Below the pieces are notes generated by a model, which worked only from the letters and a program-made list of their open reading frames with translations, ran no database searches and was not told the origin of the DNA. A stretch of DNA of 64,000 nucleotides from Sphingobacteriaceae bacterium (GTDB taxonomy: Bacteria > Bacteroidota > Bacteroidia > Sphingobacteriales > Sphingobacteriaceae), in contig CANHCS010000001.1 of the NCBI GenBank assembly GCA_947459195.1, positions 33,391 to 97,390 of the forward strand, given 5' to 3'. This document shows positions 37,069-56,651 of the stretch, one piece after another (position 1 is the first letter of the stretch; every line of letters begins with the position of its first letter). Both the position numbers and the translations under genes were made by a program.

Positions 37069-38136
37069 TTATTGTTTATAACATTCCAATACGGGTAAAC
37101 TTTTATTGTTAAAATCCCAAAATGCTTGATTCTCGTAAGTTGATCCATTTGTTGATTTGGCGCCATTATAACTAATGAGTTCTGCGCCCCAATAACAAAA
37201 GCCAATGCCTTTTGGGACTTCTTTTACTAGATTGATAATACTACTCAAGTAGTCTTTTTGGCCTTTAGGGCTTGCTTCATATGGCATTAGCAGCTGAGAG
37301 TTTAGGCCAAGTATATTATTGGTCCAATCGTTCCAGCCCAGCGTAAATGGATAGGAGGTTTCAGCGATGAATATGGATTTGTTCTGTGTATTAGAAATGG
37401 TAATTAATGATTTTTTCAAATCTGGTAAACTTTTCCCATGCCACATGGGATAGTAACTCAACCCAATAATGTCATAATCTAAGTCTGAGTTATTTGAATA
37501 AAATGCATTTGCATTTTCAAAACCGGCATAATGCAATATGATCTTGGTTTTCTTATTGGTCGCTCTTACTGCGCTAATCCCCTTCTGCAAAAGCTCTTTC
37601 ATTTGTTGAAAATTGGTTATGCTCCCCTCTGGCCAAAGAAAACCGTTGTTAATTTCGTTTCCAATCTGTACATATTCTGGATCAATCTCTCTTACTATTC
37701 TTTGTGTGTAATTATACACACTATCCTTTAATTGATTGAATGAAACACCCCGCCACTTTGCCGGTTTGGTTTGCTTTGCAGGGTCTGCCCAGCTATCAGA
37801 ATAATGAATGGTGATCATCACCTTTAAACCCATGCTTTTTATTTCATTCGACAGACTTTTAACTGAATTAAAGCTTGAATTTGGGGTATTTGGGCTTTCC
37901 CAAATTCGTAATCTTATGGTATTTACCCCTGCTTTCTTTAATGTCAAAAGCATATCTTCAATTTGATTTTGGTCATTGTAGCAGGATACTCCGCTTTGCC
38001 TCACTTCGGGTAGATTCGAAAGGTCGGTTCCTTTGATCTCCAATTGATTCAAGTTCACCAAAGGGCTGTTTTCGACTTTTTTTGAACAGGAAATGTTAAA
38101 AAAAATCACGATCAATATAATGGATGAAAATCTCAT
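37069..38136 (-). CDS. GH53 endo-beta-1,4-galactanase, predicted lipoprotein
   Basis: MRFSSIILIVIFFNISCSKK lipobox; GADxS-like KGTDLS, VNTIRLRIW, HYSDSWADPAKQ, VQIGNEINNGFLWPEG, AETSYP. Confidence 0.88.
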   Translation of the reverse strand: MRFSSIILIVIFFNISCSKKVENSPLVNLNQLEIKGTDLSNLPEVRQSGVSCYNDQNQIEDMLLTLKKAGVNTIRLRIWESPNTPNSSFNSVKSLSNEIKSMGLKVMITIHYSDSWADPAKQTKPAKWRGVSFNQLKDSVYNYTQRIVREIDPEYVQIGNEINNGFLWPEGSITNFQQMKELLQKGISAVRATNKKTKIILHYAGFENANAFYSNNSDLDYDIIGLSYYPMWHGKSLPDLKKSLITISNTQNKSIFIAETSYPFTLGWNDWTNNILGLNSQLLMPYEASPKGQKDYLSSIINLVKEVPKGIGFCYWGAELISYNGAKSTNGSTYENQAFWDFNNKSLPVLECYKQ

Positions 38137-38150
38137 ACAATTCTTTGTTG

Positions 38151-38717
38151 TCAATTGAGGCGCTTCGTTAATTGTTCTTCTACTTTTTTGAACAACTGCA
38201 TCGGTTTCAGCCCACGCCAGCTTAAATCGTCTAAACTCCCGCCAAAATTGATGTAATAATCAATGTTATTGCGTTTGAATTCTTCGATCACATGTTCGCG
38301 GAAATTGATACCGGCAATCCAGCCATCTTCCACATCCTGAAACCATTCTTCATAGTAGAGATCGTCTGAAGAATGAAAATTGAGCACATTTTCACCAATT
38401 AGGATGAACTTATTGATGCCTTCATCCATCATTAATTCCAAAATCTCCCGTTTGAGGGTCATGATGTCGTTGTGGATGGCATCGTTCCATTCGCCGATGA
38501 ATTCGATAATGGCGTAGCCATGCTCGTAGTCGGCAAATATTACTTTAAGGTATAAGGTTTGTGAGCCGAAATCGTCCCACTGTGGGTGGATGAGGTAATT
38601 GTAAATCTGTTTATCGAAATGAAACTCGTTGTACTGTGTCTCGTAAAAAGGAGATCGCTCGTCTTCGGCGGCTATATAATCATCTCGCCAACGGTAATAA
38701 GGTTCAATCTCATGCAT
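38151..38717 (-). CDS. Conserved hypothetical protein
   Basis: 188-aa intact ORF between murQ and GH53 with 1-nt spacing to murQ. Confidence 0.75.
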   Translation of the reverse strand: MHEIEPYYRWRDDYIAAEDERSPFYETQYNEFHFDKQIYNYLIHPQWDDFGSQTLYLKVIFADYEHGYAIIEFIGEWNDAIHNDIMTLKREILELMMDEGINKFILIGENVLNFHSSDDLYYEEWFQDVEDGWIAGINFREHVIEEFKRNNIDYYINFGGSLDDLSWRGLKPMQLFKKVEEQLTKRLN

Positions 38718-38718
38718 C

Positions 38719-39531
38719 TCAAGCTCCTTTCCTAAATGCTTCCATGGCTTTCCTTACGCTGCCGTACTGCTGAATATATTTTTCGGCCGATGCCTGGTCC
38801 ATAGCTGTTTCCTGCATCAGCATGCGGATGGCCCGGTTAACCAATTTGTGATTGCTCAATTGCATATCGACCATTTTATTGCCTTTCACCCGACCCAGTT
38901 GAATCATCACCGAAGTGCTGATCATGTTTAAAACCAATTTTTGAGCGGTTCCTGCTTTCATACGGGTAGAGCCGGTTACGAATTCGGGGCCAACCACTAC
39001 TTCGATGGGATAGTCGGCTGCAGCGGCCACCGGACTGCCGTCGTTGCATACGATACAACCCGTTACCAAGCCGGCTTGTTTGGCTTTTTGTAAACCACCA
39101 ATCACATATGGAGTACGACCTGAAGCCGCAATGCCTACCAAAACATCTTTGTCAGAGATTTGATATTCCTGCAGATCTTTCCAGGCTTGTTCTTCATTAT
39201 CTTCTGCAAATTCTACCGCCTTCCGAATAGCCCTATCGCCTCCGGCGATGATGCCGATTACCCAGTCGAAAGGTACGCCATAGGTGGGTGGACATTCGGA
39301 GGCGTCTACAATTCCCAAGCGGCCGCTGGTACCGGCACCGATGTAAAACAAACGACCACCAGCTTTCATTTTGGCTACAATTTGCTCAACCAGTGCTTCT
39401 ATTTGCGGAAGGGATTCTTCCACCGCATGGGGTACCGTTTGATCTTCCTGGTTGATGCCACGAAGGATTTCGGTCACAGTCATTTGATCGAGGTTCTGGA
39501 AATTAGAGTCTTGTTCGGTGGTGTTTTTCAT
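38719..39531 (-). CDS. murQ: N-acetylmuramic acid 6-phosphate etherase
   Basis: GGRLFYIGAGTSGRLGIVDASECPPTYG, SGRTPYVIGGL, GSTRMKAGTAQKLVLNM. Confidence 0.96.
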   Translation of the reverse strand: MKNTTEQDSNFQNLDQMTVTEILRGINQEDQTVPHAVEESLPQIEALVEQIVAKMKAGGRLFYIGAGTSGRLGIVDASECPPTYGVPFDWVIGIIAGGDRAIRKAVEFAEDNEEQAWKDLQEYQISDKDVLVGIAASGRTPYVIGGLQKAKQAGLVTGCIVCNDGSPVAAAADYPIEVVVGPEFVTGSTRMKAGTAQKLVLNMISTSVMIQLGRVKGNKMVDMQLSNHKLVNRAIRMLMQETAMDQASAEKYIQQYGSVRKAMEAFRKGA

Positions 39532-39548
39532 CCCCGAAATTTACACAA

Positions 39549-40850
39549 TTATTTCTGGCGGAAATAAATCTGTATCGGCACGCCGCTAAAATCGAAGTTT
39601 TCCCTGAGTTTGTTTTCTACAAAACGTTTGTAGGGATCTTTGATGTATTGCGGCAGGTTACAGAAAAAGGCAAACATGGGTGAACTGCCGCTGATCTGTG
39701 TGGCATACTTAATTTTAATGTATTTCCCTTTAGTTGCCGGAGGTGGATAATTTTCGATGATTGGCAGCATTACATCGTTTAGTTTGGAAGTTGGAATCTT
39801 CTTGAACTTGTTCTCATAAACTTTGGATGCAGCTTCGATGGCCTTAAAAATTCTTTGTTTTTCAACTACCGAAGTGAAAACGATGGGCACGTCGGTAAAA
39901 GGTGCTATTTTTTGTCGGATTTGTTCCTCAAAAACTTTGGTGGTTTTGTGATCTTTTTCAATTAAATCCCATTTATTTACGAGAATCACTACCCCTTTTT
40001 TGTTTTTTTCGGCCAAATGGAAGATGTTGATATCCTGTGATTCGATCCCTTCTACGGCATCAATCATCAAAATTATCACATCAGCTTCTTCCAGGGCTTT
40101 GATGGTACGCATCACCGAATAAAACTCGATGTTTTCCTTAACCTTGGTTTTTTTACGCAGCCCAGCTGTATCAATCAGCATAAATTCGTGACCGAACTGA
40201 TTATAGTGGATATGGATAGAGTCGCGGGTGGTACCGGCAATGGGCGTTACAATATTCCTCTCTTTACCGATGAGCGCATTAATGAGTGATGATTTCCCAA
40301 CATTTGGGCGACCAACAATGGCGTACTTGGGTAAGGTATTTTCGGTTTCTTCAGCTTCACTGAAATGTTTGACCACCTCATCCAGTAATTCGCCGGTCCC
40401 GGAGCCGGTCATGGAAGAAATCAGGTAAATTTCACCCAATCCGAAGCTGTAAAATACAGCTGCATCGTTGCGCAAGTTATTATTATCGACCTTATTGGCA
40501 ACCACAAACACCGGTTTTTTACTACGGCGAAGTATATTCGCGATCTCATCATCCAGATCGGTGACTCCGGTGGTAACATCAACCATGAAAATAATCACGG
40601 TAGCTTCTTCTATCGCTATGCTAACCTGTTCGCGGATGGCTGTTTCAAAAACATCTTCAGAGTAGGCCACATAACCGCCGGTATCTACCACCGTAAAAGG
40701 TTTGCCTAGCCATTCTGCCACGCCGTAGTGGCGGTCGCGGGTAACGCCGCTCATATCGTCTACAATTGCCTTACGGCTTTCTGTTAAACGATTATAGAGG
40801 GTTGATTTGCCCACATTTGGGCGCCCTACGATGGCTACTAAATTGCTCAT
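39549..40850 (-). CDS. der: Ribosome biogenesis GTPase Der (tandem G domains)
   Basis: [19 protein letters not shown] and [20 protein letters not shown]. Confidence 0.97.
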
Positions 40851-40856
40851 GGTGTA

Positions 40857-41735
40857 TTAGTTTTCGTATCCAAAGGTCTTTAGGTAATTTTTCCGGTTTC
40901 GCCAATCGGCAATCACCTTTACAAATAACTCCAGGAATACTTTTTTCTGTAAAAATTCTTCAATGTCCTGTCGGGCATAGGTGCCTACTTTTTTTATCAT
41001 CTCTCCACTTTTGCCAATCAGGATGTTTTTTTGCGAATCGCGTTCAACAATGATTTCGGCGGCAATTCGTATTAATTTTCCTTCTTCTTTAAAGGAGGTC
41101 ACAATCACTTCTGTACTGTACGGAATTTCTTTGTCGTACAGTTTGAATATCTTTTCCCTAACCATTTCCGATATAAAAAAACGTTCGGTTCGGTCGGTGA
41201 GGGTGTCTTTATCGTAATAGGCCGGATGTTCGGGCAGGCGGTCTAAAATGAATTGCATCACGGCAGCCACATTATGTTCATGAAGAGCCGAAACCGCAAA
41301 AATGGCTTCCGGGTTAAGGGTCTCTTGCCAGTAGCTGATTTTCTCTTTTACTTTTTCTTCGTCAGATTTGTCAATTTTATTGATAATGACTGCCACCGGC
41401 GAAGCGGTTTTTTGCAGGCGCTCCAAAACATCGTTTTCGTCGTAGCGCTCGTTAATATCGGTAACAAATAAAATCAGATCTGCATCAACCAAGGAACCGT
41501 TTACAAAACTCATCATCGATTCCTGCAATCCATAATGGGGCTTGATGACGCCCGGAGTGTCTGAAAAAATGATCTGATATTCCGGTTCATTTACAATTCC
41601 TAAAATACGGTGTCGGGTGGTTTGCGCTTTAGAAGTAACGATAGACATTTTCTCGCCCACCAAAGCGTTCATCAGGGTAGATTTACCCGCATTCGGTTTC
41701 CCGATGAGACTCACAAAACCGGCCTTATGCGACAT
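40857..41735 (-). CDS. era: GTPase Era
   Basis: MSHKAGFVSLIGKPNAGKSTLMNALVGEKMSIVTSKAQTTRHRI plus KH-domain C-terminus; start at internal ATG 41735. Confidence 0.96.
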   Translation of the reverse strand: MSHKAGFVSLIGKPNAGKSTLMNALVGEKMSIVTSKAQTTRHRILGIVNEPEYQIIFSDTPGVIKPHYGLQESMMSFVNGSLVDADLILFVTDINERYDENDVLERLQKTASPVAVIINKIDKSDEEKVKEKISYWQETLNPEAIFAVSALHEHNVAAVMQFILDRLPEHPAYYDKDTLTDRTERFFISEMVREKIFKLYDKEIPYSTEVIVTSFKEEGKLIRIAAEIIVERDSQKNILIGKSGEMIKKVGTYARQDIEEFLQKKVFLELFVKVIADWRNRKNYLKTFGYEN

Positions 41736-41842
41736 GGAATTTTTTTTGAAAAAGATTTGGACTGCAAAGAAACGAAATATATCTTTGCAGTCCAATTTAA
41801 AAGCAAGGCATATTGTCGCCAATGCCAATAAATTGTAGAGAG

Positions 41843-41918
<76 letters not shown>

Positions 41919-41950
41919 AGTTGAGTTAAATAGAACTTAACTGATATAAT

Positions 41951-42025
41951 GGCCCGTTCGTCTAGGGGTTAGGACGCAAGATTTTCATTCTTGAAACAGG
42001 GGTTCGATTCCCCTACGGGCTACCA
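41951..42025 (+). tRNA. tRNA-Glu (TTC)
   Basis: GGCCCGTTCGTCTAGGGGTTAGGACGCAAGATTTTCATTCTTGAAACAGGGGTTCGATTCCCCTACGGGCTACCA. Confidence 0.95.
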
Positions 42026-43532
42026 TAAGGGAAAGGTCAGATTTACTCTGACCTTTTTTCATTGTTTTTCCTACAAAAAATTCATTTAAACCATAAATAA
42101 GATTGATTATCTCATTGTCCCCATTGGTTCGATAATTTGAGTTCTCGTAAATTAATTTTTCGGTAAATATCAAACCAAGCAGCTTCTTCCTTATTTCAAT
42201 TGTTGAATTTTTGTAGTATTCCTTAATGTTTCCAATAAGTGTGATGCCGTATTTTAAGTATTTGTCATACCCACTCTCTTGATGTTCAATTTCACTAATC
42301 CTTAATTCCAAAGTCGCGATATTTCTCTTTGTTTTCTCATTGTAATTACGGAATGTATCCTTGTCTATTGTGCCTTGAATCAAATGTTCAGTAGCCTTAT
42401 TTAGATTTTCACGACATTTAACAATATCTTCATCTAACTTTCTTATTTCATCTTGTCTATTTCCCTCGCTCGTTTCGAAAATATCCTTTATAATTGCTAA
42501 ATATAGCTCTATGATTTCTGGTTGAACCTTCAAACTCTCTAAGTAGCTTTCAAAAGCCGAATGAATTTTATTTGCAGAATGTCTTTCTTTACAACCAGGT
42601 TGACAATGGTAGTAATAGTATTTTCCACCATTACCTTTTGAAGCACTTCCTGTTAAATTAGTACTACATTTAGGACAAACCAGGAAACCCCTTAGAGGTA
42701 ATAGTTCGTTAACCTTGACTGATTTTAGAGTTATTTTTGATTTTTTTAGGCTAATTTGTTGTACTCTATTGAATAGTTCTTCGGGAACAATACTATCATG
42801 TACCCCCTTTACAATTTGCATATCCTCATCCCCCAATGCAGGGACCACTACATATCCAGCATAAACATATCTATGAAACATTTTATTAAAGGCTGATTTT
42901 TTCAAGCTCATACCTTCGGGTATTAGCATTTTTCTAACTTCCTCTTTCTCGTAGATACCTTGTGAATATAGTTCGAACGCTTTTCGGATAAGAATGGCTT
43001 TCTCATTTGGAATTAAAATCCGCTTATTAAGTGCGTCATCAGTAAAAGAATAACCAAAAGGAGCGGTAGAAACATAACGACCTTCTTTCATCGCCCTTCG
43101 CATACCATTTGCAGTATTCATTGCCCTTCTATCATTCTCAACTTCGGGAGCAGTCAAGTAAAAACTTAACATAAATTTACTCTCTGGTTTTGTTGGGTCA
43201 ATCCATCCCTCAATAGCATTAACCTCTACACCATAACTTTTCAGTAGTTTGATTTTAGCTAATGCATCAGTTATATTTCTTGAAAATCGGTCCCATCTTG
43301 AAACAAGAAAGTAGTCAATTTTTAACTTCTTTTTAGTTATCAATTGCTCTATTTCTCTAAATTTCGGTCTTTCAAAATTTTTGGCGGAGAAATCTTCTTG
43401 GAAATGACCAACAATATCGATGGAATTAAACTTGCAGAACTGCTCGAGTTTGCTTTTTTGGTCCAGTAAACTATACCCTCTATTAGCCTGTTCGTCTGTA
43501 GAAACTCGGGTATAAATTATTGCATTCTTCAT
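41985..43532 (-). CDS. Large serine recombinase (resolvase + recombinase + zinc-ribbon domains)
   Basis: MKNAIIYTRVSTDEQANRGYSLLDQ, WDRFSRN, CPKCSTNLTGSASKGNGGKYYYYHC; C-terminus RRGIEPLFQE encoded antisense in tRNA-Glu. Confidence 0.93.
   Translation of the reverse strand: MKNAIIYTRVSTDEQANRGYSLLDQKSKLEQFCKFNSIDIVGHFQEDFSAKNFERPKFREIEQLITKKKLKIDYFLVSRWDRFSRNITDALAKIKLLKSYGVEVNAIEGWIDPTKPESKFMLSFYLTAPEVENDRRAMNTANGMRRAMKEGRYVSTAPFGYSFTDDALNKRILIPNEKAILIRKAFELYSQGIYEKEEVRKMLIPEGMSLKKSAFNKMFHRYVYAGYVVVPALGDEDMQIVKGVHDSIVPEELFNRVQQISLKKSKITLKSVKVNELLPLRGFLVCPKCSTNLTGSASKGNGGKYYYYHCQPGCKERHSANKIHSAFESYLESLKVQPEIIELYLAIIKDIFETSEGNRQDEIRKLDEDIVKCRENLNKATEHLIQGTIDKDTFRNYNEKTKRNIATLELRISEIEHQESGYDKYLKYGITLIGNIKEYYKNSTIEIRKKLLGLIFTEKLIYENSNYRTNGDNEIINLIYGLNEFFVGKTMKKGQSKSDLSLMVARRGIEPLFQE
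42032..42059 (+). terminator. Rho-independent terminator after tRNA-Glu
   Basis: AAAGGTCAG ATTTACT CTGACCTTTTTT. Confidence 0.75.
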
Positions 43533-43674
43533 CCTGTTTGGATTTATTTTTAAAAGTCTCGTAATCTAATCTTCCTAAGCAATATAATACTTCTCTTATC
43601 GCTTTAATATTTTCAGTCGAATAAAATTTGCCTGATTTCGTAAGTATTGATTTACAATGTTCGATTGAGAGCAT
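43483..43674 (-). CDS. Small hypothetical protein upstream of and overlapping the recombinase
   Basis: Internal start MLSIEHCKSILTKSGKFYSTENIKAIREVLYCLGRLDYETFKNK; overlaps the recombinase by 50 nt; longer ORF starts at 43752. Confidence 0.6.
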   Translation of the reverse strand: MLSIEHCKSILTKSGKFYSTENIKAIREVLYCLGRLDYETFKNKSKQDEECNNLYPSFYRRTG

Positions 43675-43925
43675 AATATAAACTTGTATCGATTTTAATA
43701 ATTCGATGTAAAGCACGTTAAAATGCTTATGTGAAAAAATCAATGTGGACAACTTTCAATTATCTGGGTGCTTGTTACAATAATTAAATCGCCTTTTTTA
43801 TTTATACACTTTATCATAACTTTATGAGAGATTGAATACAGAAAGTGAAATATTTCATTTTCAAATACTGTTTTAATACTAACTAAGCCTATATCTCACC
43901 AATCTCAAAACAACTAAGTCCCAAT

Positions 43926-44411
43926 ATGAAAAAAACAATTCTAATCTTAATTCTACTCCCATTATTCACATTTGGTCAAAGAGAAAGCAAGGATAGTTTG
44001 CAGATTAATGAAAAAGCTCTTGGTTGGTTTAAATCTAATTATGTAGAAAAGAGTTTCAAGGACCCTTATTCTTTTAAACTAATGAAAATTTCAAATAGTT
44101 CAATTTCATTTAAACAATGGATATTAAATGATTTAGAATCTGCTCAAAGAGCAATTTCTGAATATGAGCAAAAAAAGAAATTAGATAAGTATGAAAAAGA
44201 GTTATATGATGGTACTGTTAAACGAAGAGCTTTATATCAGGAGCAATTAAATACGTTGACTCCGGAAGATTCACAAAAGGTTAAGTGTTACGAAATCTTG
44301 ATAGACTGCTATGGTGCAAATTCATATGGCAACTTGATTTTGAGTAAATATAAATTCAATTTTTTCACTGATAAACTTCCCCCAGTTTCATACGTGCAAA
44401 AAGTTAATTGA
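43926..44411 (+). CDS. Secreted hypothetical protein (island cargo)
   Basis: Signal peptide MKKTILILILLPLFTFGQ; 161 aa. Confidence 0.7.
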   Translation: MKKTILILILLPLFTFGQRESKDSLQINEKALGWFKSNYVEKSFKDPYSFKLMKISNSSISFKQWILNDLESAQRAISEYEQKKKLDKYEKELYDGTVKRRALYQEQLNTLTPEDSQKVKCYEILIDCYGANSYGNLILSKYKFNFFTDKLPPVSYVQKVN

Positions 44412-44466
44412 AGTCTTGATTGTTAAAGGATTATAATATTAGATTTAACTATTAAAACATTTAACC

Positions 44467-44805
44467 ATGAAAGAAAACCAAGACTACACCAAACTCAAAG
44501 ACGACACAATTGAATATTTAGAAACAAATGACGAAAACAACCTAAGGAGAGTTGCAACCTTTGTTTTGTTAATTGGTATAGGAATTTCCATATTATCCTT
44601 TATTTACCTTTCTTTTATTACGGTTCCCCATCGTGACTACCCCCTTACACAAAAGGAATATGTATTTAACCCATCTGGGTTCATTGCAAGTATTGGTACC
44701 CTTATGGGGTCAATTTTACTTTGGTCACTCTTAAGGGTGATTTCTAATATTTCAATATCCCTTAAGGAACTTAATGCAAATTACACAACTAAAAATTTTC
44801 GATAG
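44467..44805 (+). CDS. Two-TM hypothetical membrane protein (island cargo)
   Basis: Hydrophobic segments VATFVLLIGIGISILSFIYLSFI and GFIASIGTLMGSILLWSLL. Confidence 0.65.
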   Translation: MKENQDYTKLKDDTIEYLETNDENNLRRVATFVLLIGIGISILSFIYLSFITVPHRDYPLTQKEYVFNPSGFIASIGTLMGSILLWSLLRVISNISISLKELNANYTTKNFR

Positions 44806-44827
44806 AATTTTAAAAAAGTATTAAAAC

Positions 44828-45046
44828 ATGGGAACAACAACTGAACCCCTCTTTGGGGTTGTATTAGTTATTTTTTTACTTATTGGTATTTTCCTGTTGA
44901 TAAGAGGATTAAATCTTTGGTATTGGAAAATTGAAGAAAGGATTGAAATTGAAAAAGAACAATTACGTGTACAAAGAGAAATATTGAGTAATCTTCAGGA
45001 TTTCATGAGTGAATTAGAAAAACGAAAAAATAATTCTTTTTATTAA
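44828..45046 (+). CDS. Single-TM small protein with C-terminal helical tail (island cargo)
   Basis: LFGVVLVIFLLIGIFLLIRGLNLWYWKIEERIEIEKEQLRVQREIL. Confidence 0.6.
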   Translation: MGTTTEPLFGVVLVIFLLIGIFLLIRGLNLWYWKIEERIEIEKEQLRVQREILSNLQDFMSELEKRKNNSFY

Positions 45047-45159
45047 GTATCCTAATAAAATTATTGTGGTAGCCAAGTGTAGCTACATGCCGTTGGTAGC
45101 AAGTCTAAAGTCAGACGCCCTACAAACAAACCGATACAAATTCAAAAAATTAAAGAGAT

Positions 45160-46077
45160 ATGAACAAATTAAACATTTTACTCTTTTTAACACTGGTTGT
45201 TGTTTTAACTTCTTGCGACAAAACATATAAGTATGTAGAGAAGGTTAGTGAAGAAAGTATTTTAGGTGGGACAGTAATAAAAGAGAAAGATGAAACAATT
45301 ATTATGGCAAAGGACGACTCTACTGCATACTTGGAAGCATTCCGGAAGTTTTGTATTTCGGTTAAAGTTAAAAAGTACATGGATAAATCAATGGGTAAGA
45401 CATATTCTACACCCATAAGTTTTAAACTTTTAAATGACAAGGGTGAAGACATAACAAGCACTACATTATTTGCAAGCCGAACTAAACGTGAAAAAGAAAT
45501 TGAAGAACGAATATTTTCAATGAAAAACAGCGTTCAAGATGCAGTTGACAATAACAGAAAAGAGAGAATAGAAGAATTTAAAAAAACAGCAAAAATTGAT
45601 TCTGCAAAAATTAAAGAATTGAAGAAATTTTTTAGAATTAAAAAAGACGAATTTTCTACAACAGGAAAAACCTGGTATACACCCAAGTCAGCTCCAAGAT
45701 ATACAAATAGAAATGGATTATATTGCTATTTCCAAACGGAGAATGGTATTCCGAGCAATTTTAGATTTAGAATGCAATACTATTCGGACGATTGGTTGTT
45801 TTTTAGTAAAGTGCAATTTTCAATAGATGGGAAAGCATATGAGTATGTACCTATGGACACAGAAACTGATAATGGGGACGGTGGACGTATTTGGGAATGG
45901 TTTGATGAAAGTGTTTCCGAAAGCGACAAAGAATTAATAAATGCTTTAGCGAATGCAAAATCAGCTAAAATGAAACTGATAGGTAGACAATATTTTGATA
46001 TAAAAAATATAACACAGGAACAAATAAAAAGTATTAAACGAACATTAGAATTGTATCAAGCAATGGGTGGAAAATAG
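45160..46077 (+). CDS. Hypothetical lipoprotein (island cargo)
   Basis: Lipobox MNKLNILLFLTLVVVLTSCDK; 305-aa intact ORF. Confidence 0.75.
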   Translation: MNKLNILLFLTLVVVLTSCDKTYKYVEKVSEESILGGTVIKEKDETIIMAKDDSTAYLEAFRKFCISVKVKKYMDKSMGKTYSTPISFKLLNDKGEDITSTTLFASRTKREKEIEERIFSMKNSVQDAVDNNRKERIEEFKKTAKIDSAKIKELKKFFRIKKDEFSTTGKTWYTPKSAPRYTNRNGLYCYFQTENGIPSNFRFRMQYYSDDWLFFSKVQFSIDGKAYEYVPMDTETDNGDGGRIWEWFDESVSESDKELINALANAKSAKMKLIGRQYFDIKNITQEQIKSIKRTLELYQAMGGK

Positions 46078-46274
46078 CAATAATAGCAAAGAGTGTTAGT
46101 TTTTCAATCAATATATTAGTTATAAAAATCAAAAGAAGATAAATCATAAAGAATACATCCCCTTATGAAAAGCTGTTTTTGCATATGAGGACAAAAATGG
46201 GCTTTTCAGATAACAAGCTAAAGGGGAAGGTTTTTATCTAACTGTTAAAATCACATTAATAAAGGAAAGGTATC

Positions 46275-46457
46275 TTGGATGATATATATGTTACCCTTGA
46301 TGGAGGTAGTAATACATTCAGAGAGGTAAAGCGTTACTTTGATAATCCAGAAATTGCAAATGAATTAAGAAGAGGGATTATAGTTACATTTAATGAAAAT
46401 TGGGTTGGATTAATGGGTAATATTTTAATTAAGGAGTTTGAGTTAATACAAGATTGA
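46275..46457 (+). CDS. Small hypothetical ORF, possibly a gene fragment
   Basis: 60 aa, TTG start only, no recognised motif. Confidence 0.3.
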   Translation: MDDIYVTLDGGSNTFREVKRYFDNPEIANELRRGIIVTFNENWVGLMGNILIKEFELIQD

Positions 46458-46459
46458 AT

Positions 46460-46588
46460 ATGAATTTATTCGGAATTACAGGTAGTAAGGTATATGCCGA
46501 TTTAACCCCACTTCCGTCTAAAAATTTGTATAACCCTGAACGATTCTTCAGACATCATATCTTTCCAATTGAGAAAGTTGAAAGTTAA
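46460..46588 (+). CDS. Micro-ORF (42 aa) with NPERFFRHH motif
   Basis: MNLFGITGSKVYADLTPLPSKNLYNPERFFRHHIFPIEKVES; below the ORF-track cutoff. Confidence 0.35.
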   Translation: MNLFGITGSKVYADLTPLPSKNLYNPERFFRHHIFPIEKVES

Positions 46589-46598
46589 AGGACGTATA

Positions 46599-47072
46599 CT
46601 AAGAGAGAACTCCAATTACGAAAATTATAAAAATTATAATTGCAATCCATGCAATTACTATCATAGAATTATCGCTATCATAATTTACTGATGGGTTTTG
46701 TTTTCTATAAGCACTCAAACCACCCGTTTGAATATAGTTCTCCAAATAATCCAAAAATTCTCTTTTTATTTTTTCAGCAGTATTGTGAGTAACCGTTGTG
46801 AGTAACCCATCTGAATTACTAATCTTCAGTTTTAGATTGGTTTTATTAGGTTCTAAACTTACTATTTGACACTCTATGACAAATTTCGAACCGAAAGTTG
46901 GGCTGTAATCAAAGGTTATAGTTTTATACAAAGATTTGATTGCCGGGTTATAGAAGTTTGAATTAGATTGAACAACTATAGAAACCGATGAAAACAGTTT
47001 TTCATCGTCAACATTGAAATTATAATTACCCTCTAATGCTGGTAATTGGTGTCTTTGATAATAAGTTCCCAT
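46599..47072 (-). CDS. Hypothetical protein with C-terminal TM anchor (island cargo)
   Basis: MIVIAWIAIIIFIIFVIGVLS tail; 157 aa. Confidence 0.65.
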   Translation of the reverse strand: MGTYYQRHQLPALEGNYNFNVDDEKLFSSVSIVVQSNSNFYNPAIKSLYKTITFDYSPTFGSKFVIECQIVSLEPNKTNLKLKISNSDGLLTTVTHNTAEKIKREFLDYLENYIQTGGLSAYRKQNPSVNYDSDNSMIVIAWIAIIIFIIFVIGVLS

Positions 47073-47097
47073 GTTCTATTTTTTTATATCTAATCCA

Positions 47098-47289
47098 TCA
47101 AAGCCTGTAAAAAGAATTGATTTGTTCATTCGTCATCTTTGTGCCGTCTTTCTCATACAATAACTTTAAAAGATAGTTTGTTCTTTTTGTGTTCTTGTCA
47201 ATTGATGAGAAAACTAAATAAAACATAATAATTATAATCAGTTGAATTCCTAAAATGATAAATAGTACGGTTGATACATCGTTAGTCAT
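47098..47289 (-). CDS. Single-TM small protein (island cargo)
   Basis: VLFIILGIQLIIIIMFYLVFSS; directly upstream of and co-directional with 46599-47072. Confidence 0.55.
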   Translation of the reverse strand: MTNDVSTVLFIILGIQLIIIIMFYLVFSSIDKNTKRTNYLLKLLYEKDGTKMTNEQINSFYRL

Positions 47290-47460
47290 ATTTTTCTGTT
47301 TTTAAGTTATTTGACTAATCTAAATTTATTATTTTTTAATTGTTTCAAGGGATTGATTTGAAAAATTATTTGAATTATAAATACTTATAACTTGTTATTC
47401 TTTTAGGTTCATTGTTTGTGTGCCAATTTGATAATCCATCAAATTATTCTTTAAAACCAT

Positions 47461-47532
47461 ATGTGTCAAAAAAAGAGTCAGAATCCTGAACAGTTCTTTA
47501 GTCAGCATTTGATTTCATTAGAGAAAGAGTAA
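47461..47532 (+). CDS. Micro-ORF (23 aa) with NPEQFFSQH motif
   Basis: MCQKKSQNPEQFFSQHLISLEKE; resembles 46460-46588 C-terminus. Confidence 0.3.
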   Translation: MCQKKSQNPEQFFSQHLISLEKE

Positions 47533-47661
47533 AAACTAAAAATAATTTACTAAGATTCTTTTGTTGATTTTTTTGAGTCAAATAAGGTCTATATCCTTCT
47601 TTTGCACTTTAAATTGGAAAAATAGTTTACTATTTTTATGCTAATAGATTAAGAAAGTAAA

Positions 47662-48219
47662 ATGAAAAACATTATTGTAACTACTATGGTAGTAGTGCTT
47701 ACAACGACAGCACTTTTGGGTCAAGAATTTTTAGGCGTCAAGGTTGATGGGAAAAAAGAGACGGTTATTGCTGCATTTAAGTCGAAAGGGTTTGCTCCAA
47801 GCGGCGAAATGTCGGACAATGTTGTTACAATGAAAGGTGTTGCTGCAGGCAAAAATATAGAAATCAACATTGTCAGTACTCCATTGACTAAAACAGTCTG
47901 GAAATTTTCTGTTTACCTACCAAAACAAAGTAATTGGTATTCTTTAAAGGCACAATATGAAGAATACTTAAAGCTCTTAACAGAAAAGTACGGGGAACCA
48001 ACGAACATGTATAATTTCTTCTCAAGCCCTTACGAAGAGGGAGATGGTTATGAAATGACTGCAGTGTATGCTGAGAAATGTCATTATGCTGCTTTTTGGA
48101 AGCAGGGGTATGCTATAAATATATCCCAATGGAAACAAGTTAACATTGTCTATGAAAATGATGTTAATAGTGATTTAAATCGCAAAGAAAAAGACCAGGT
48201 GAATAAAAACATATTCTAA
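47662..48219 (+). CDS. Secreted hypothetical protein (island cargo)
   Basis: Signal peptide MKNIIVTTMVVVLTTTALLGQ; 185 aa. Confidence 0.72.
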   Translation: MKNIIVTTMVVVLTTTALLGQEFLGVKVDGKKETVIAAFKSKGFAPSGEMSDNVVTMKGVAAGKNIEINIVSTPLTKTVWKFSVYLPKQSNWYSLKAQYEEYLKLLTEKYGEPTNMYNFFSSPYEEGDGYEMTAVYAEKCHYAAFWKQGYAINISQWKQVNIVYENDVNSDLNRKEKDQVNKNIF

Positions 48220-48430
48220 TCTTCTCCATGCAGTAGTTACAACCAGTACACCTTCTTCCTAATGAAAGTATACAATTAAGGTTGTATTCCCTTATAGGAT
48301 GGATATTGCTTCTCAAATATCTCTGACACCCTTTGTTATTTTTTGCTTTTAGCGTTATAAATAGGTATAATATGTCTTAGTGTATACAATTCCCGTAATT
48401 TCACCTTAGTTCGGTTCGATAATTGAAGCT

Positions 48431-48440
48431 TACGGGCTAC
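48431..48440 (+). repeat. Degraded copy of tRNA-Glu 3' end (candidate att site)
   Basis: ggttcgat-N10-tacgggctac (48413-48440) versus tRNA ggttcgattcccctacgggctac. Confidence 0.65.
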
Positions 48441-48441
48441 T

Positions 48442-48477
48442 AAAAACCTCATTTCTGATTTCAGAGATGAGGTTTTT
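48442..48477 (+). terminator. Rho-independent terminator following the degraded tRNA 3' end
   Basis: AAAAACCTCAT ... ATGAGGTTTTT, 11-bp perfect stem. Confidence 0.8.
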
Positions 48478-48575
48478 TATTTTACGGGTTAAACAAAGTA
48501 AACATTTATTAAACTTCAATACTAGATTTATCCTTGGAGGTGATAGTTATTTTTAGAGTTTTAATTATCATGGAT

Positions 48576-49013
48576 TTATTTTTTGATGGAGTAATAGAAT
48601 GTCCCAACGCCTCCACGATTCATCCCACCAATTAGTACCGTTGTGTCGATTTTACTTAATACTTTATTATTATTTATGTATATAGAAGAAGTTGAACTTC
48701 CTTTCTTGTCTAAGATATAAAAGGTCGTTTCAAATCCAACATCCAATGGTCTTTTGTTACTGGTAATTGTAAACGTAGTATCCCAGGAATTAACTCCACT
48801 TTTAGGGTAAACATATTCTGATAATCCATTTTCTCCCACAATTTTCGTAATTCTAAATGCTGACCTAGGACCAAAGCTAGCGGGAGGTTCGATGATACCT
48901 GTACTAAATTTTAGTTCATATTTTACAGTTATAGGGACAGGACGTGTTGTTTTATCTTTGGAGCAACTACTAAATAAACACACCAAAAACAAAATATTAA
49001 TAATTTCTTTCAT
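48576..49013 (-). CDS. Hypothetical lipoprotein
   Basis: Lipobox MKEIINILFLVCLFSSCSKDK; 145 aa; lies between the two downstream att-like sites. Confidence 0.7.
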   Translation of the reverse strand: MKEIINILFLVCLFSSCSKDKTTRPVPITVKYELKFSTGIIEPPASFGPRSAFRITKIVGENGLSEYVYPKSGVNSWDTTFTITSNKRPLDVGFETTFYILDKKGSSTSSIYINNNKVLSKIDTTVLIGGMNRGGVGTFYYSIKK

Positions 49014-49198
49014 ATGAATCAGTTAATCTATGAATTAAATATTTCCAAATTTAAAATTCTTTAAGGAAACTGTCATTCCTCTATTCTCTATATTTCAATG
49101 AAGGTTCATTGTATAGTATTTAGAACTATATGAGTTCGAAGTCCTGTTAAAAAAGTGCTGTAAAACATTTATAAAAGCACATTATGACTGAGGTGTGT

Positions 49199-49213
49199 TT
49201 CCCCTACGGGCTA
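49199..49213 (+). repeat. Distal copy of tRNA-Glu 3' end (candidate attR)
   Basis: ttcccctacgggcta, 15/15 identical to 42008-42022. Confidence 0.75.
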
Positions 49214-49246
49214 AAAAACCCTTAGCAATTATATTGAGGGTTTTTT
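49213..49246 (+). terminator. Rho-independent terminator following the distal tRNA 3' end copy
   Basis: AAAAAACCC ... GGGTTTTTT. Confidence 0.75.
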
Positions 49247-49324
49247 ATTTTGTAACCTTTCTGTTTGCATCTTTATCCTTTCATGATTTTCTGTAAATTG
49301 CTCTCTTAACCAATTGAATCAATC

Positions 49325-52300
49325 GTGCATATTCACTTTAAGAGATGGTTGCTTGTTGCTTTTTTGTTCAACAGTTTACTTGTAAGGTCACAAACCAAAA
49401 TCAATTTTGATGAGGGATGGAAATTTCATTTCGGCCATGCCGGTGATCCTTCGAAGGATTTCAATTATGGTATTCCAGCCATATTCTCCAAGTCAGGCAA
49501 AACAGATCAAACTGCGCTAGGCATTAATTTTGATGATAAAGCCTGGAGAACGCTCGATTTACCTCATGACTGGGCAGTAGAATTACCTTTTGTAAATACG
49601 CCTAATTTTGATGTGCAGTCGCACGGCTATAAACCAGTGGGCGGTTTGTATCCAGAAACCAGTATCGGCTGGTACCGCAAACATTTTACCGTAGCCAAGG
49701 CCGATTCGGGAAGTCGTTTCAGCATACAGTTTGATGGAATTTTTAGGAATGCCAACATTTGGGTCAATGGATTTTTTCTGGGGAATAATCAAAGTGGCTA
49801 TGTGGGGGCAACTTATGATATTACCGATTATATCCAATTTGATAAAGACAATGTAATTACGGTAAGAGTAGATGCCACACAATACGAAGGTTGGTTTTAT
49901 GAGGGGGCCGGGATCTATAGGCACGTATGGCTAAATAAATTTAACAACCTCCATTTTGAGCAGAATGGCGTGTTTGTTTATTCGGATGTGAAGGATAAGA
50001 GTGCACAAATAAACATTGAAGCCAGCATCCAAAATGAACAATTGAGTGGAGCAAACTTCACAATCTATTCATATCTCACAGACCGGAATGGTAAAAGGCT
50101 GGCCCAAACGAAACCACAAGCTGTTGAACTGGCTTCCAACGCTCAAACAACCGTTAAGCAGCAGATCCATCTCCTGCATCCGCGTTTATGGAGCTTAAAA
50201 GATCCTTATTTATACAAAGTCGTTTCTATCATTAAATCCGGGGATCAGGTGATCGATTCTGTAAAACAACGCATTGGTATCCGTACCATCCGTTTGGATC
50301 CGAAGGAAGGTTTTTTCCTGAATGGCGAATACGTGAAGTTGCAAGGCGTAAACAATCACCAAGATCATGCTGGGGTAGGGAGCGCCTTGCCGGATTATTT
50401 GCAATACTATCGTGTGGCTTTATTAAAAGAAATGGGCGTGAATGCCTATCGTACCAGCCACCACGCACCTACACCCGAACTGTTAGCAGCCTGCGATAGT
50501 TTAGGGATGCTGGTGATGGATGAACAACGTTTATTAAATAGCAGTCCCGAATACATGAGTCAGCTTGAGCGTCTAATTAAACGTGATCGGAATCATCCTT
50601 CCGTTTTTTTATGGTCAATTGGCAACGAGGAAGGTTGGATACAAACTAACTCTACCGGAAAGCGTATTGCTCAAACCCTATTGGCCAAACAACGAGCATT
50701 AGACCCCACCCGCACCAGCACCTATGCGGCCGATGTTCCCAATGTATTTGAAGGGGTAAACGAAGTCATCCCCGTTAGAGGATTTAACTATCGCCAGTTT
50801 GCCGTTGCCGATTATCATCGCGACCACCCCAATCAACCCATTATTGGTACGGAGATGGGGAGTACGGTAACTACTCGGGGAATTTATCAGCTTGATTCAT
50901 TGAAAGCTTATCTGCCCGATCAAGACATCACTGCTCCCTGGTGGGCCAGCCGTGCTGAAGAGTGGTGGCAGCTTGCTGCTCCAAATAAATTTTGGCTAGG
51001 TGGATTCATCTGGACTGGATTTGATTATCGAGGAGAACCCACCCCATTCAAATGGCCTAATATCAATTCGCATTTTGGCGTAATGGACATGTGCGGATTC
51101 CCAAAAAACATTTATTACTACTATCAAAGCTGGTGGACCGATAAAGACGTATTGCATATTTCGCCTCATTGGAATTGGCCCGGCAAAGAGGGACAAGCCA
51201 TGGATGTTTGGGTGAACTCCAATGCCGACGATGTGGAATTGTTTTTAAATGGGAAAAGTTTGGGTAAAAAACAGATGCCACGTAATGGGCATTTGCAATG
51301 GTCAGTTTTGTATGAGCCGGGTAAATTAGCAGCCATTGCTTATAAAAAAGGTAAAAAATTAACCGCACAAGTAGAAACTACCGGTCCGGCTGCCGAAGTG
51401 GTAATTACTCCTTATAAAACAACCATGCTGGCCGATGGCAAGGATGCAGCCGTGATTAATGTGAGTGTAGTGGACAAGGAGGGAAGAGAAGTGCCCAATG
51501 CCAATCAGCTCATTAAATTTATCCTTACGGGAGATGCGAAAATTATTGGCGTTGGCAACGGAGATCCGAGCAGTCATGAACCTGATAAATGTGTAGACGG
51601 TGCCTGGCAACGAAGTCTGTTTAATGGGAAATGTCAGGTAATTATTCAATCGGGTAAAACCGCGGGGAATATCAAGTTCGAAGCAATAGCAGATGGACTG
51701 TGGAAAGGATCAACTGATATTTTAACAGTTTCACCGTCTAATGTATCTACCCTGAGTACGAGCGATAAGAAGTATGAATTGAGAGGTGAAGCCGCCAAAT
51801 CGAGGTCGAGCACCAAGATGCTGGGAGCTGATATTTCTTTTCTACCAGAGTTAGAGGCCAAGGGGATTAAATTTTCGGATCAGGGTATTCAGAAAGATCC
51901 CATTTTGATCATGAAAGACCATGGGATCAATTATGTGCGCTTACGCATTTTTAATGACCCAGCTCATGAAAAAGGCTATGCTCCCGGCCAAGGATTCTGC
52001 GATTTGAACTATACCAAAGCCATGGCGAAACGGGTGAAAGCAGCCGGGATGAAGCTCTTATTAGACTTTCACTATAGCGATTATTGGGCCGACCCGGGAA
52101 AACAATTCAAGCCGGCCGCTTGGGAAAAATTAAATCCGGAGGAGCTCAAGCAAGCTTTATATGATTTTACCAAGAAAGTGATGCAGGAATTGAAAGATCA
52201 GGGCACTACACCCGATATGGTCCAAATTGGAAACGAGATTAACCATGGTATTGTTTGGCCGGAAGGTAGTGTGAGCAATATCGATTATTTGGCACAGCTC

Positions 52301-52726
52301 ATTAAATCAGGTACCGCCGCCGTAAAATCGGTTGATCCGAAAGTGGTGATGATGCTGCACATCGCTTTGGGCGGACAGAACGACGAGTCTGTATTTTTTA
52401 TAGATAATATGGTGGCCCGTGGGGTACACTTCGATGTGATCGGTCAGTCCTATTATCCAAAATGGCATGGAACTTTAGCTGATTTGAATTCGAATTTGAA
52501 TGATTTGGTCAGAAGATATGATAAAGAGGTCATCGTAGTTGAATATTCCCAATTTAAGGATGAAGTAAATAAAATTGCTTTTGAACTTCCTGAAGGCAAG
52601 GGCATGGGTACCTGCATTTGGGAGCCCCTCAATACCTGGGAGGCATTCTTTAACCCAGACGGCCAATCTAATGACTATCTGAAACGCTACGATCAGATCA
52701 GCAAACAATACCTCCAGAAAAAATAG
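49325..52726 (+). CDS. GH2 beta-galactosidase fused to C-terminal GH53 endo-galactanase, secreted
   Basis: GH2 motifs (GWYRKHF, GVNNHQDHAGVG, WSIGNEEGW, GTEMGS) then GH53 motifs from ~51810 (MLGADISFLPELEAKG, YVRLRIFNDP, HYSDYWADPGKQ, VQIGNEINHGIVWPEG); signal peptide; GTG start. Confidence 0.92.
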   Translation: MHIHFKRWLLVAFLFNSLLVRSQTKINFDEGWKFHFGHAGDPSKDFNYGIPAIFSKSGKTDQTALGINFDDKAWRTLDLPHDWAVELPFVNTPNFDVQSHGYKPVGGLYPETSIGWYRKHFTVAKADSGSRFSIQFDGIFRNANIWVNGFFLGNNQSGYVGATYDITDYIQFDKDNVITVRVDATQYEGWFYEGAGIYRHVWLNKFNNLHFEQNGVFVYSDVKDKSAQINIEASIQNEQLSGANFTIYSYLTDRNGKRLAQTKPQAVELASNAQTTVKQQIHLLHPRLWSLKDPYLYKVVSIIKSGDQVIDSVKQRIGIRTIRLDPKEGFFLNGEYVKLQGVNNHQDHAGVGSALPDYLQYYRVALLKEMGVNAYRTSHHAPTPELLAACDSLGMLVMDEQRLLNSSPEYMSQLERLIKRDRNHPSVFLWSIGNEEGWIQTNSTGKRIAQTLLAKQRALDPTRTSTYAADVPNVFEGVNEVIPVRGFNYRQFAVADYHRDHPNQPIIGTEMGSTVTTRGIYQLDSLKAYLPDQDITAPWWASRAEEWWQLAAPNKFWLGGFIWTGFDYRGEPTPFKWPNINSHFGVMDMCGFPKNIYYYYQSWWTDKDVLHISPHWNWPGKEGQAMDVWVNSNADDVELFLNGKSLGKKQMPRNGHLQWSVLYEPGKLAAIAYKKGKKLTAQVETTGPAAEVVITPYKTTMLADGKDAAVINVSVVDKEGREVPNANQLIKFILTGDAKIIGVGNGDPSSHEPDKCVDGAWQRSLFNGKCQVIIQSGKTAGNIKFEAIADGLWKGSTDILTVSPSNVSTLSTSDKKYELRGEAAKSRSSTKMLGADISFLPELEAKGIKFSDQGIQKDPILIMKDHGINYVRLRIFNDPAHEKGYAPGQGFCDLNYTKAMAKRVKAAGMKLLLDFHYSDYWADPGKQFKPAAWEKLNPEELKQALYDFTKKVMQELKDQGTTPDMVQIGNEINHGIVWPEGSVSNIDYLAQLIKSGTAAVKSVDPKVVMMLHIALGGQNDESVFFIDNMVARGVHFDVIGQSYYPKWHGTLADLNSNLNDLVRRYDKEVIVVEYSQFKDEVNKIAFELPEGKGMGTCIWEPLNTWEAFFNPDGQSNDYLKRYDQISKQYLQKK

Positions 52727-52738
52727 TTACAGTTCAGT

Positions 52739-53878
52739 ATGACTCAGATTAGAAGCATTTTCTATCAGCAATTTGCCACAGAGCCAATTGTTATTCAATC
52801 TCCCGGCAGGATCAATATCATAGGAGAGCATACCGATTATAATGAAGGGTTTGTATTGCCGGCATCGATAGACAAATCAATTTATGTGGCCATTTCAAAA
52901 AGGGAGGATCAACAAATCCATTTGTTCTCCTCCAATTATCAAGAGTACATTGAAATAGCACTTGCTGATATCAGGCCAAATCAAAATTGGTCAACTTATA
53001 TCTTAGGAGTAGTAGATCAAGTCCAGAAAAAGGGACATCATTTAAGTGGTTTTAATTTGGTGTTGGATGGGGATGTGCCGATTGGTGCGGGATTATCTTC
53101 TTCTGCAGCTGTGGAATGTGCGGTGGTGTTTGCATTAAACGAATTATTCGGTCTGGGAATCAGTAAGCTCGAAATGGTTCAGATCGCTCAAAAGGCAGAG
53201 CATACTTTTTCTGGCGTATTATGTGGTATCATGGACATGTTCGCCAGCATGTTTGGGCAGCAAGATCAAGTGATCAAACTCGATTGTCGTTCGCTGGATT
53301 ATACATATAAACCTTTGGTTCTCGACGGATATAAACTTGTCCTCTTCAATACCAATGTGAAACATTCATTAGCCAGCTCTGCTTATAATACCCGCAGGCA
53401 GGAATGTGAGCAGGGGGTGAGCTGGGTGCAGCAAAAATATCCGGAAGTAAAAAGTTTAAGAGATGTGAACAGGCAGATGTTGCAAGAATTAGTTGCCCCT
53501 AAGGATCAGCAGGTTTACCGTCGTTGCAATTATGTGGTATCAGAAATTGAGCGCTTACAGCAAGCCTGTGATGATCTGGAAAGGGGAGACCTTTTAGCCT
53601 TGGGTCAAAAAATGTTTCAAACTCACCAAGGGCTGAGTAATGACTACGAAGTAAGCTGCAAAGAATTAGATTTTTTAGTAGATGAAGTCAAAACACAAAA
53701 TGCCGTTTTAGGAGCCAGGATGATGGGGGGAGGTTTTGGCGGATGTACCCTTAATTTAGTGAAAGAAGAATTTATAACTGAAATCTCTGAGAAGCTTTAC
53801 CAAAGCTATCAGCAGAAAATGGGTTTAGAGCTGAGCACTTACATCGTAACTACCGCTCCAGGAACACACAGATTATGA
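52739..53878 (+). CDS. galK: Galactokinase
   Basis: SPGRINIIGEHTDYNEGFVLPASID, GAGLSSSAAVE, RMMGGGFGGCTLNLV. Confidence 0.95.
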   Translation: MTQIRSIFYQQFATEPIVIQSPGRINIIGEHTDYNEGFVLPASIDKSIYVAISKREDQQIHLFSSNYQEYIEIALADIRPNQNWSTYILGVVDQVQKKGHHLSGFNLVLDGDVPIGAGLSSSAAVECAVVFALNELFGLGISKLEMVQIAQKAEHTFSGVLCGIMDMFASMFGQQDQVIKLDCRSLDYTYKPLVLDGYKLVLFNTNVKHSLASSAYNTRRQECEQGVSWVQQKYPEVKSLRDVNRQMLQELVAPKDQQVYRRCNYVVSEIERLQQACDDLERGDLLALGQKMFQTHQGLSNDYEVSCKELDFLVDEVKTQNAVLGARMMGGGFGGCTLNLVKEEFITEISEKLYQSYQQKMGLELSTYIVTTAPGTHRL

Positions 53879-54870
53879 GCTACATTCCTAATATAAACCG
53901 TTACGAGCAAATGGACTACCGTCGCTGTGGTCAAAGTGGGTTGAAATTGCCGGCCATTTCTTTAGGTTTATGGCACAATTTCGGACAGCTTGATGATTTT
54001 GAAAATGCCCGTCAACTTATTCATAGAGCTTTTGATTTGGGTATTACTCATTTCGATCTTGCAAATAATTATGGTCCGCCGCCGGGCAGCGCAGAAGAAA
54101 ATTATGGCAAGATCCTGAAGCAAGATTTTGGTAGATTTCTTCGCGATGAACTCATCATTTCGACCAAGGCGGGCTATCGGATGTGGCCGGGACCTTACGG
54201 CGAATGGGGTTCACGAAAGTATCTGATCAGTAGTCTCGATCAGAGTTTAAAACGCACGGGTTTGAATTATGTAGATATCTTTTACCACCACCGACCCGAT
54301 CCTGAAACGCCCTTGGAAGAGAGTATGCAGGCCCTGCACGATATCGTAAAAAGTGGCAAGGCATTATATGTGGGTATTTCCAATTATCCTGCCGAAGTAG
54401 CTCGAAAAGCGATCCAAATGCTTAAAGAATTGGGTACGCCCTGCCTCCTCCATCAGCCTAAATATTCACTATTTGAACGTTGGGTGGAAGATGGTTTATT
54501 GGACGTTTTAGAAGAAACTGGAACCGGTTGTATCCCTTACTCGCCTCTGGCGCAAGGCTTATTGTCCGACCGTTACCTTAAAGGCATTCCAAAAGATTCT
54601 AGAGTGGCTAAAGGGGTAGGTTTTTTAACTGAATCTCATTTATCACCCGACAAATTGGAAAAAATTAAGCAATTGAATGAGCTGGCAGTTGAACGTAGCA
54701 CCACCTTGGCACAAATGGCATTGGCCTGGGTATTGAAAGATCCTCGAGTTAGTTCGGTACTCATAGGCGCCAGCCGCCCCGAGCAAATTAGCGATGCGGT
54801 TGAGTGTTTGGAGAAATTATATTTTGAGCCAGAAGAGTTGTCCGCCATTGAAAATATCTTGAAGCCCTAA
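53875..54870 (+). CDS. Aldo/keto reductase (YghZ/L-glyceraldehyde-3-phosphate reductase-like)
   Basis: FDLANNYGPPPGSAEENYGKIL, STKAGYRMWPGPYGEWGSRKYL; 4-nt overlap with galK. Confidence 0.88.
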   Translation: MSYIPNINRYEQMDYRRCGQSGLKLPAISLGLWHNFGQLDDFENARQLIHRAFDLGITHFDLANNYGPPPGSAEENYGKILKQDFGRFLRDELIISTKAGYRMWPGPYGEWGSRKYLISSLDQSLKRTGLNYVDIFYHHRPDPETPLEESMQALHDIVKSGKALYVGISNYPAEVARKAIQMLKELGTPCLLHQPKYSLFERWVEDGLLDVLEETGTGCIPYSPLAQGLLSDRYLKGIPKDSRVAKGVGFLTESHLSPDKLEKIKQLNELAVERSTTLAQMALAWVLKDPRVSSVLIGASRPEQISDAVECLEKLYFEPEELSAIENILKP

Positions 54871-54894
54871 TCCTTTCAAAATCCTGAATCAATT

Positions 54895-56589: not shown

Positions 56590-56610
56590 AAATCAAATTC
56601 CTATTCAACG

Positions 56611-56643
56611 AAAAAAGTCCTACTCAAAAGAGTAGGACTTTTT
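56611..56643. terminator. Bidirectional rho-independent terminator between convergent genes
   Basis: AAAAAAGTCCTACTC AAAA GAGTAGGACTTTTT. Confidence 0.88.
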
Positions 56644-56651
56644 CATTTGGA

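Follow-up and report, generated by a model that had tools for sequence, protein, structure and literature searches.

In the window analyzed here, a stretch of 64,000 nucleotides from a Sphingobacteriaceae bacterium (assembly GCA_947459195.1, contig CANHCS010000001.1, positions 33,391–97,390), two integrative elements are very probably stacked at one tRNA-Glu gene: an inner element and an outer, older remnant of a different element. The inner element is intact, encodes a large serine recombinase (LSR) and occupies positions ~42,024–48,440 (6.4 kb). The piece behind it, 48,441–49,214 (~0.77 kb), is probably what remains of an older, decayed element of the tyrosine-integrase type, so that the two elements probably differ in kind. 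The coordinates of the features are collected in Table 1; G and L numbers are our labels for the genomes and loci compared.

ARAGORN places tRNA-Glu(ttc) at 41951–42025, next to a tRNA-Met (41843–41918), and the stretch from this gene to the GH2 gene is AT-rich (GC content 0.31 vs. 0.43 in the flanks). A sequence-only reading of the window had described three copies of the tRNA-Glu 3' end with three terminators, and the ARAGORN prediction, a terminator scan and the positions of exact matches bear it out. The decamer TACGGGCTAC is found exactly at 42014–42023 and 48431–48440 and with one mismatch at 49205–49214; the 15-bp TTCCCCTACGGGCTA is found at 42008–42022 and 49199–49213, the second of these being the perfect copy with a terminator (hairpin 49212–49247) to which the same reading had drawn attention. 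The terminator-like hairpins lie at 42029–42059, 48442–48477 (16 pairs, the strongest in the region) and 49212–49247, and terminator-like sites of all kinds number 9, compared with 3.3 expected. According to 3,000 simulations of the island, the exact decamer TACGGGCTAC is expected 0.0003 times per island, and its combination with TTCGA at the observed offset did not occur at all.

The empty site and the boundaries, as well as the motif positions and gene content given below, are read directly from the sequence. Same-genus genomes show the uninterrupted tRNA-Glu followed by GH2-GH53 that had been expected of relatives free of the island. In G005 and G003, both of the same genus, window positions 38230–42023 and 49199–59997 are contiguous with a 16-bp overlap, whose tRNA-Glu thus directly joins the right-hand sequence. 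G001, G002 and G004 carry no insert: a terminator of the same kind and then the GH2-GH53 gene come directly after their tRNA-Glu. The net insertion relative to same-genus relatives is 7,191 bp with its right end at 49,214, and the island interior is absent from all genus genomes compared. With an intact tRNA 3' end, a flanking repeat and an empty site in relatives, the locus is a tRNA-gene integrative element (genomic island). Since the assembly is a draft in 82 contigs, an assembly error was considered, as were chance repeats; we regard this as extremely unlikely, as the two flanks are colinear with those of five relatives (75–92% identity) and meet at an exact overlap of 16 bp, and the same architecture occurs in complete genomes. 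The proposal that each element brings its own terminator holds for the left and middle hairpins but not for the right one, which is the original terminator of the tRNA-Glu, as in G005 and G003, and now lies 7.2 kb from its gene.

Which of the copies ends the LSR element can be judged from the ends of related elements. For G265, comparison with G193, G244 and G208 located the right end: a P arm is followed by the core GGGCTAC and then by a tRNA-Glu terminator resembling the one in G208, where the site is empty. The junction P arm of Chryseobacterium and Epilithonimonas has only TGGGTAC in common with the tRNA-Leu, and the candidate right attachment site (attR) of G047 (tRNA-Asn, 7.1-kb element) and the L003 junction look similar to the G265 and Chryseobacterium ends. 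When these sites are aligned on the core end, TTCGA falls in one column in all six LSR attR or junction sites. The middle copy of the window has TTCGA in the same column (48415–48419), and the copy at 49,199 lacks it. By these sequence comparisons, the LSR family appears to have a short core that takes up about 7–8 bp of the tRNA tip, and TTCGA precedes this core at a constant spacing; the TTCGA column and the short cores together point to the middle copy as the right end of an LSR element. A short core also explains why the long-repeat search, for copies of at least 13 bp of the tRNA end within 5–100 kb of other LSR loci, returned no convincing attR. The middle copy had previously been taken for a degraded T-loop. 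This does not hold, since GGTTCGAT (48,413) is separated from TACGGGCTAC by 10 bp in the middle copy vs. 5 bp in the tRNA; it is therefore out of register with the T-loop and is better read as part of the P arm of the LSR attR. No exact match to the middle copy turned up in 251 family genomes.

The sequence-only reading had left a choice between successive insertions at one attachment site and a single element of 7.2 kb. The latter would have its left attachment site (attL) at 42,008–42,023 and its attR at 49,199–49,214, with the middle copy as an internal leftover or a chance match. Its size agrees exactly with the net insertion, its 15-bp repeat is longer, and the outer copy shows inner symmetry with the P' arm (GGGGAAA vs. 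GGGAAA). Nevertheless, we consider a single element unlikely on anatomical grounds: the outer copy does not have the TTCGA arm of the six LSR attR or junction sites, and its arm belongs to a different kind of element in G265; chance would not be expected to produce the middle copy together with this TTCGA arm at the right offset; LSR right ends, where located, have short cores as a rule; and the symmetry is uninformative because it is part of the tRNA itself. The LSR right ends, the TTCGA position and the outer arm thus support successive insertions as the better of the two readings, together with the boundaries proposed for it, an inner element with the recombinase reaching ~48.44 kb and a remnant at 48.44–49.21 kb. 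Assignment of the outer copy at 49,199 as the LSR attR, made from the empty site and an arm search, was dropped in view of the right ends in G265 and Chryseobacterium.

The evidence on the outer piece comes from its right end. The arm TGTAAAACATTTATAAA together with the core occurs only in the window, G008, G177 and G265 among 251 family genomes, with none for a reversed-pattern control, and in the three other genomes the arm precedes solitary tRNA-Glu 3' ends; no match was obtained when the arm was sought with looser criteria across 395 genomes of the class. The order in G265, where genes were named from sequence and not all tested, is tRNA-Glu, terminator, tyrosine integrase gene, relaxase-like and other genes, TGTAAAACATTTATAAA arm with core, and LSR element. 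A core–terminator–integrase layout at tRNA-Glu is found in G265, G019 and G018: in G019, two tRNA-Glu loci each have this terminator type and then a tyrosine integrase behind them, and in G018, two solitary cores each precede a terminator and a tyrosine integrase that is broken. Tandem arrays of both kinds of element are present in G265 and G019, and also in G193, with the LSR lost. On the basis of the arm context in G265 and of a core close to the published repeat of tRNA-Glu integrative and conjugative elements (ICEs), we read the outer piece as a probable remnant of a tyrosine-integrase element. It has no integrase open reading frame (ORF) in 48441–49214 and so does not itself qualify as a tyrosine-integrase tRNA-Glu element; the assignment to this type was made from the right arm and core alone. 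Its only gene in 48.44–49.21 kb is the lipoprotein-like ORF at 48576–49013, as had been noted from the sequence, and homologs of this ORF are found only in two same-genus genomes, elsewhere on the chromosome.

The outer piece could instead derive from a second LSR element that lost its recombinase. Tandem LSR elements do exist (Chryseobacterium indologenes AA5, loci L009 and L023; L003), and a few residues ahead of the middle core resemble an LSR C-terminus. However, the P-arm motif of LSR elements is missing from the outer arm, and the outer core includes the T-stem, like the sites associated with tyrosine integrases; two tandem LSR elements are thus quite improbable.

Several observations weigh against an inner LSR element stacked on an outer remnant of another kind. 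A P-arm matrix trained on other clades does not score the P arm of the window, only the TTCGA position and the core being common to both. Of the two copies, the outer one matches the tRNA perfectly over a longer stretch (15 vs. 10 bp) and its inner symmetry with the P' arm is better, and the outer remnant retains no integrase. In G193, a near relative of G265, a similar arm is present without a recognizable tyrosine integrase beside the tRNA, and no genome was found with just one of the two elements at the tRNA-Glu site.

Overall, stacking of two elements agrees best with the data, and from it we infer the order of events, present activity, the type of the older element and the role of the small gene as follows. 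The first to insert would have been an older element that has since decayed to ~0.77 kb; it probably belonged to the tyrosine-integrase type that is known from tRNA-Glu genes of the phylum. The 6.4-kb LSR element would have inserted later between the tRNA and the remnant, into the tRNA-side end of the latter, its recombinase joining the tRNA-tip core (about CGGGCTAC) to the element's own copy of that core. The inner element would thereby supply a new tRNA tip and terminator and push everything else downstream. The junction of an excised 6.4-kb circle would read P arm-CGGGCTAC-cataagGGAAAG. With the stop of the recombinase inside the tRNA, its last residues would differ between the integrated and excised states, and control of direction or activity is probably the task of the small gene that overlaps the recombinase start.

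The recombinase has the Resolvase, Recombinase and zinc ribbon domains of large serine recombinases, and YTRVSTDEQ near its N-terminus includes the catalytic RVS motif; in NCBIfam it has distant matches to CcrA, CcrB, CcrC and XisF, all far below the cut-off. Its frame crosses its own left attachment site and stops within the tRNA-Glu in antisense (...MVARRGIEPLFQE). The last residues, GIEPLFQE, are antisense tRNA-Glu, and homologous antisense tails occur in relatives. The opposite strand of the P' arm (42024–42059) encodes the recombinase C-terminus, and in other LSR loci a P'-arm-like GGAAAG/GGACAA motif lies ~6 nt past the tRNA end. Among 59 full-length relatives, an annotated tRNA gene directly adjoins the recombinase gene in 46, and the protein ends in GxEP in 50; this motif is the T-loop antisense in one frame, and several of the remaining relatives use the same frame with a variant of the motif.

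The clade targets at least nine isotypes (tRNA-Leu, Met, Arg, Asn, Pro, Glu, Lys, Asp and Phe). On the LSR tree, with loci without an annotated tRNA counted as their own label, the isotype label changes at least 31 times, indicating that target switching has been a recurrent event; tRNA-Glu appears as the target at four separate positions. This Bacteroidota LSR clade aims at the tips of many tRNA genes and is a little-noticed family. The phage and plasmid collections contained only distant recombinases of the Gram-positive type, and IMG/VR contained five relatives, none with a clear free attachment site (attP).

Individual loci of the family show further variation. At L010, L017 and L204, the LSR attL lies on a tRNA-Leu fragment starting at the anticodon loop and not on a whole tRNA, which looks like insertion into an attR left by another element. 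More distant serine recombinases (L077, L182 and L203) enter tRNA-like sequence in another frame, with tails such as DGTRTRDP and PGRIRTCNP. The two LSR element ends of C. indologenes AA5 (NZ_CP018786.1; L009 around 1392457, L023 around 1294961) are 95% identical and lie in tandem ~97 kb apart in the same orientation; the second copy reads into its own P arm instead of a tRNA. At L163 (G193, position 11893), an LSR P' arm and a tRNA-Glu core occur with no LSR gene within the stretch examined; this is apparently a decayed LSR element and a useful model of remnants.

An ORF of 50–65 amino acids lies directly before the recombinase start or overlaps it in nearly all LSR relatives (about 50 loci). 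The one in the window, at 43483–43674, is matched at E = 2.2e-21 by a profile built from the ORFs of ten relatives, with the window's own excluded. Partner ORFs of the Chryseobacterium type score weakly or not at all against this profile, and they are likely homologous to the profile family. No family in Pfam, NCBIfam, PHROGs or PADLOC matched the partner gene above the cut-off. By position only, the 63-amino-acid partner is a candidate directionality factor or regulator.

We also considered that the C-terminal tail of the recombinase, with the small partner, forms a switch that sets the direction of recombination, the enzyme being changed after integration or excision. In the integrated state the tail is encoded by the host tRNA (...VARRGIEPLFQE), and the tail predicted for the excised circle from the P arm of the element is ...VARKLQLSNRTKVKLRELYTLRHIIP... 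(residues after the first twelve translated by hand). Similar P-arm-encoded tails are found in two clades, G265 (TEQISKHFLEDLEFI, hand translation) and Chryseobacterium (TEEISKYLIEDLERI). However, L022 has a stop at the P-arm tail and the window's own tail differs, and such a switch seems to us a doubtful proposition.

In the cargo of the inner element, the 185-amino-acid secreted ORF at 47662–48219 has a weak Pfam Ntox46 match just under the cut-off. Pfam, PADLOC and PHROGs detected no relaxase or conjugation families among the inner-element ORFs, and the inner element does not qualify as an integrative and conjugative or mobilizable element. A stretch 87% identical to the small membrane ORF at 47119–47223 lies on a different contig of this genome (G000:C22:20615-20719, L136). 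It should be added that the region lies between two GH53 (endo-galactanase family) domains, of which the one at 37069–38154 (−) stands alone and the one at 49325–52726 (+) is fused to GH2.

Table 1. Features of the tRNA-Glu locus, in window coordinates.
Feature	Position	Strand	Basis
tRNA-Glu(ttc), attachment target	41951–42025	+	ARAGORN; identity to empty-site relatives G005 and G003 ends at 42023
LSR, 515 amino acids	41985–43532	−	Pfam Resolvase, Recombinase and Zn_ribbon_recom above cut-off; PHROG integrase
Left core of inner element, last 7–8 bp of tRNA-Glu, CGGGCTAC	42016–42023	+	
P' arm of inner element, cataagGGAAAGGTCAG...	42024–42059	+	Absent from empty sites; element-borne terminator 42029–42059
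Small partner gene, 63 amino acids, MLSIEHCKSILTKSGKFYSTENIKAIREVLY...	43483–43674	−	Overlaps recombinase start; family profile match
Inner cargo: short secreted, membrane and lipoprotein ORFs, no assigned function	43926–48219	.	ORF list, Pfam, PADLOC, PHROGs
attR of inner element: P arm, TTCGA 48415–48419, core CGGGCTAC 48433–48440	48395–48440	+	TTCGA offset in six other LSR sites; chance estimate
Left end of outer remnant, with terminator 48442–48477	48441–48477	+	Terminator scan; absent from empty sites
Lipoprotein-like ORF, 145 amino acids, only gene of outer remnant	48576–49013	−	
Right attachment site of outer remnant: arm TGTAAAACATTTATAAA 49159–49175, core TTCCCCTACGGGCTA 49199–49213	49159–49214	+	
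Ancestral chromosomal tRNA-Glu terminator	49212–49247	+	Aligns with terminator directly behind tRNA-Glu in G005 and G003

Islands at tRNA genes, tandem accretion and LSRs are already known. Phage LSRs and the Ccr recombinases of SCCmec share the Resolvase, Recombinase and zinc-ribbon domains with the LSR of the window; they are known for targets in protein-coding genes, whereas the clade described here sits at tRNA genes, and tRNA ends are usually regarded as targets of tyrosine integrases. We found no description of a tRNA-tip-targeting Bacteroidota LSR clade in the open literature, which is not proof of absence. Serine integrases are valued as genome-engineering tools, and the clade offers ready target sites (attB) in nearly any member of Bacteroidota. 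Its isotype switching provides a natural series for studying change of target, and the fixed antisense reading into the tRNA, together with the co-conserved small gene, gives testable leads on direction control. For the window itself, the analysis gives two elements their exact ends, where looking for repeats alone would have treated them as a single one.

With respect to the outer remnant, ICECspPOL2 and the type II ICECleSHZ29-like elements use the same tRNA-Glu-TTC target with a repeat, ATTCCCCTACGGGCTAC, nearly identical to that of the outer copy (PMC8694125, PMC12561888). The published repeat is 17–18 bp (PMC8694125, PMC12561888), and these elements are conjugative and 75–116 kb in length, whereas the outer remnant is 0.77 kb and has no integrase. 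Elizabethkingia elements at tRNA-Leu-CAA are also mentioned (PMC8694125) and may use the same recombinases as the LSR clade. The Riemerella 10K island at tRNA-Arg, with an NBU1-like integrase, likewise uses a tRNA 3' end as attB and has its integrase at the tRNA-side end, but it differs in having a tyrosine recombinase and a 53-bp repeat (PMC6764341).

The closest precedent found is the serine recombinase DsiB at the ssrA islands of Dehalococcoides, whose gene overlaps attL and has its stop beyond the island (PMC3146451). As in the window, a serine recombinase is located at the 3' part of an RNA gene, and tandem islands repeat the RNA 3' end (PMC3146451). Those islands differ from the window in that their target is ssrA, their insertion was inferred to lie in the T-loop, their repeat measures 20 bp and a further, smaller recombinase, DsiA, is present (PMC3146451). 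In the window, the target is tRNA-Glu, the core covers ~7–8 bp of the tRNA tip, only one LSR is present and the small partner is a different one; the inner element is thus not an ssrA island of the DsiB type.

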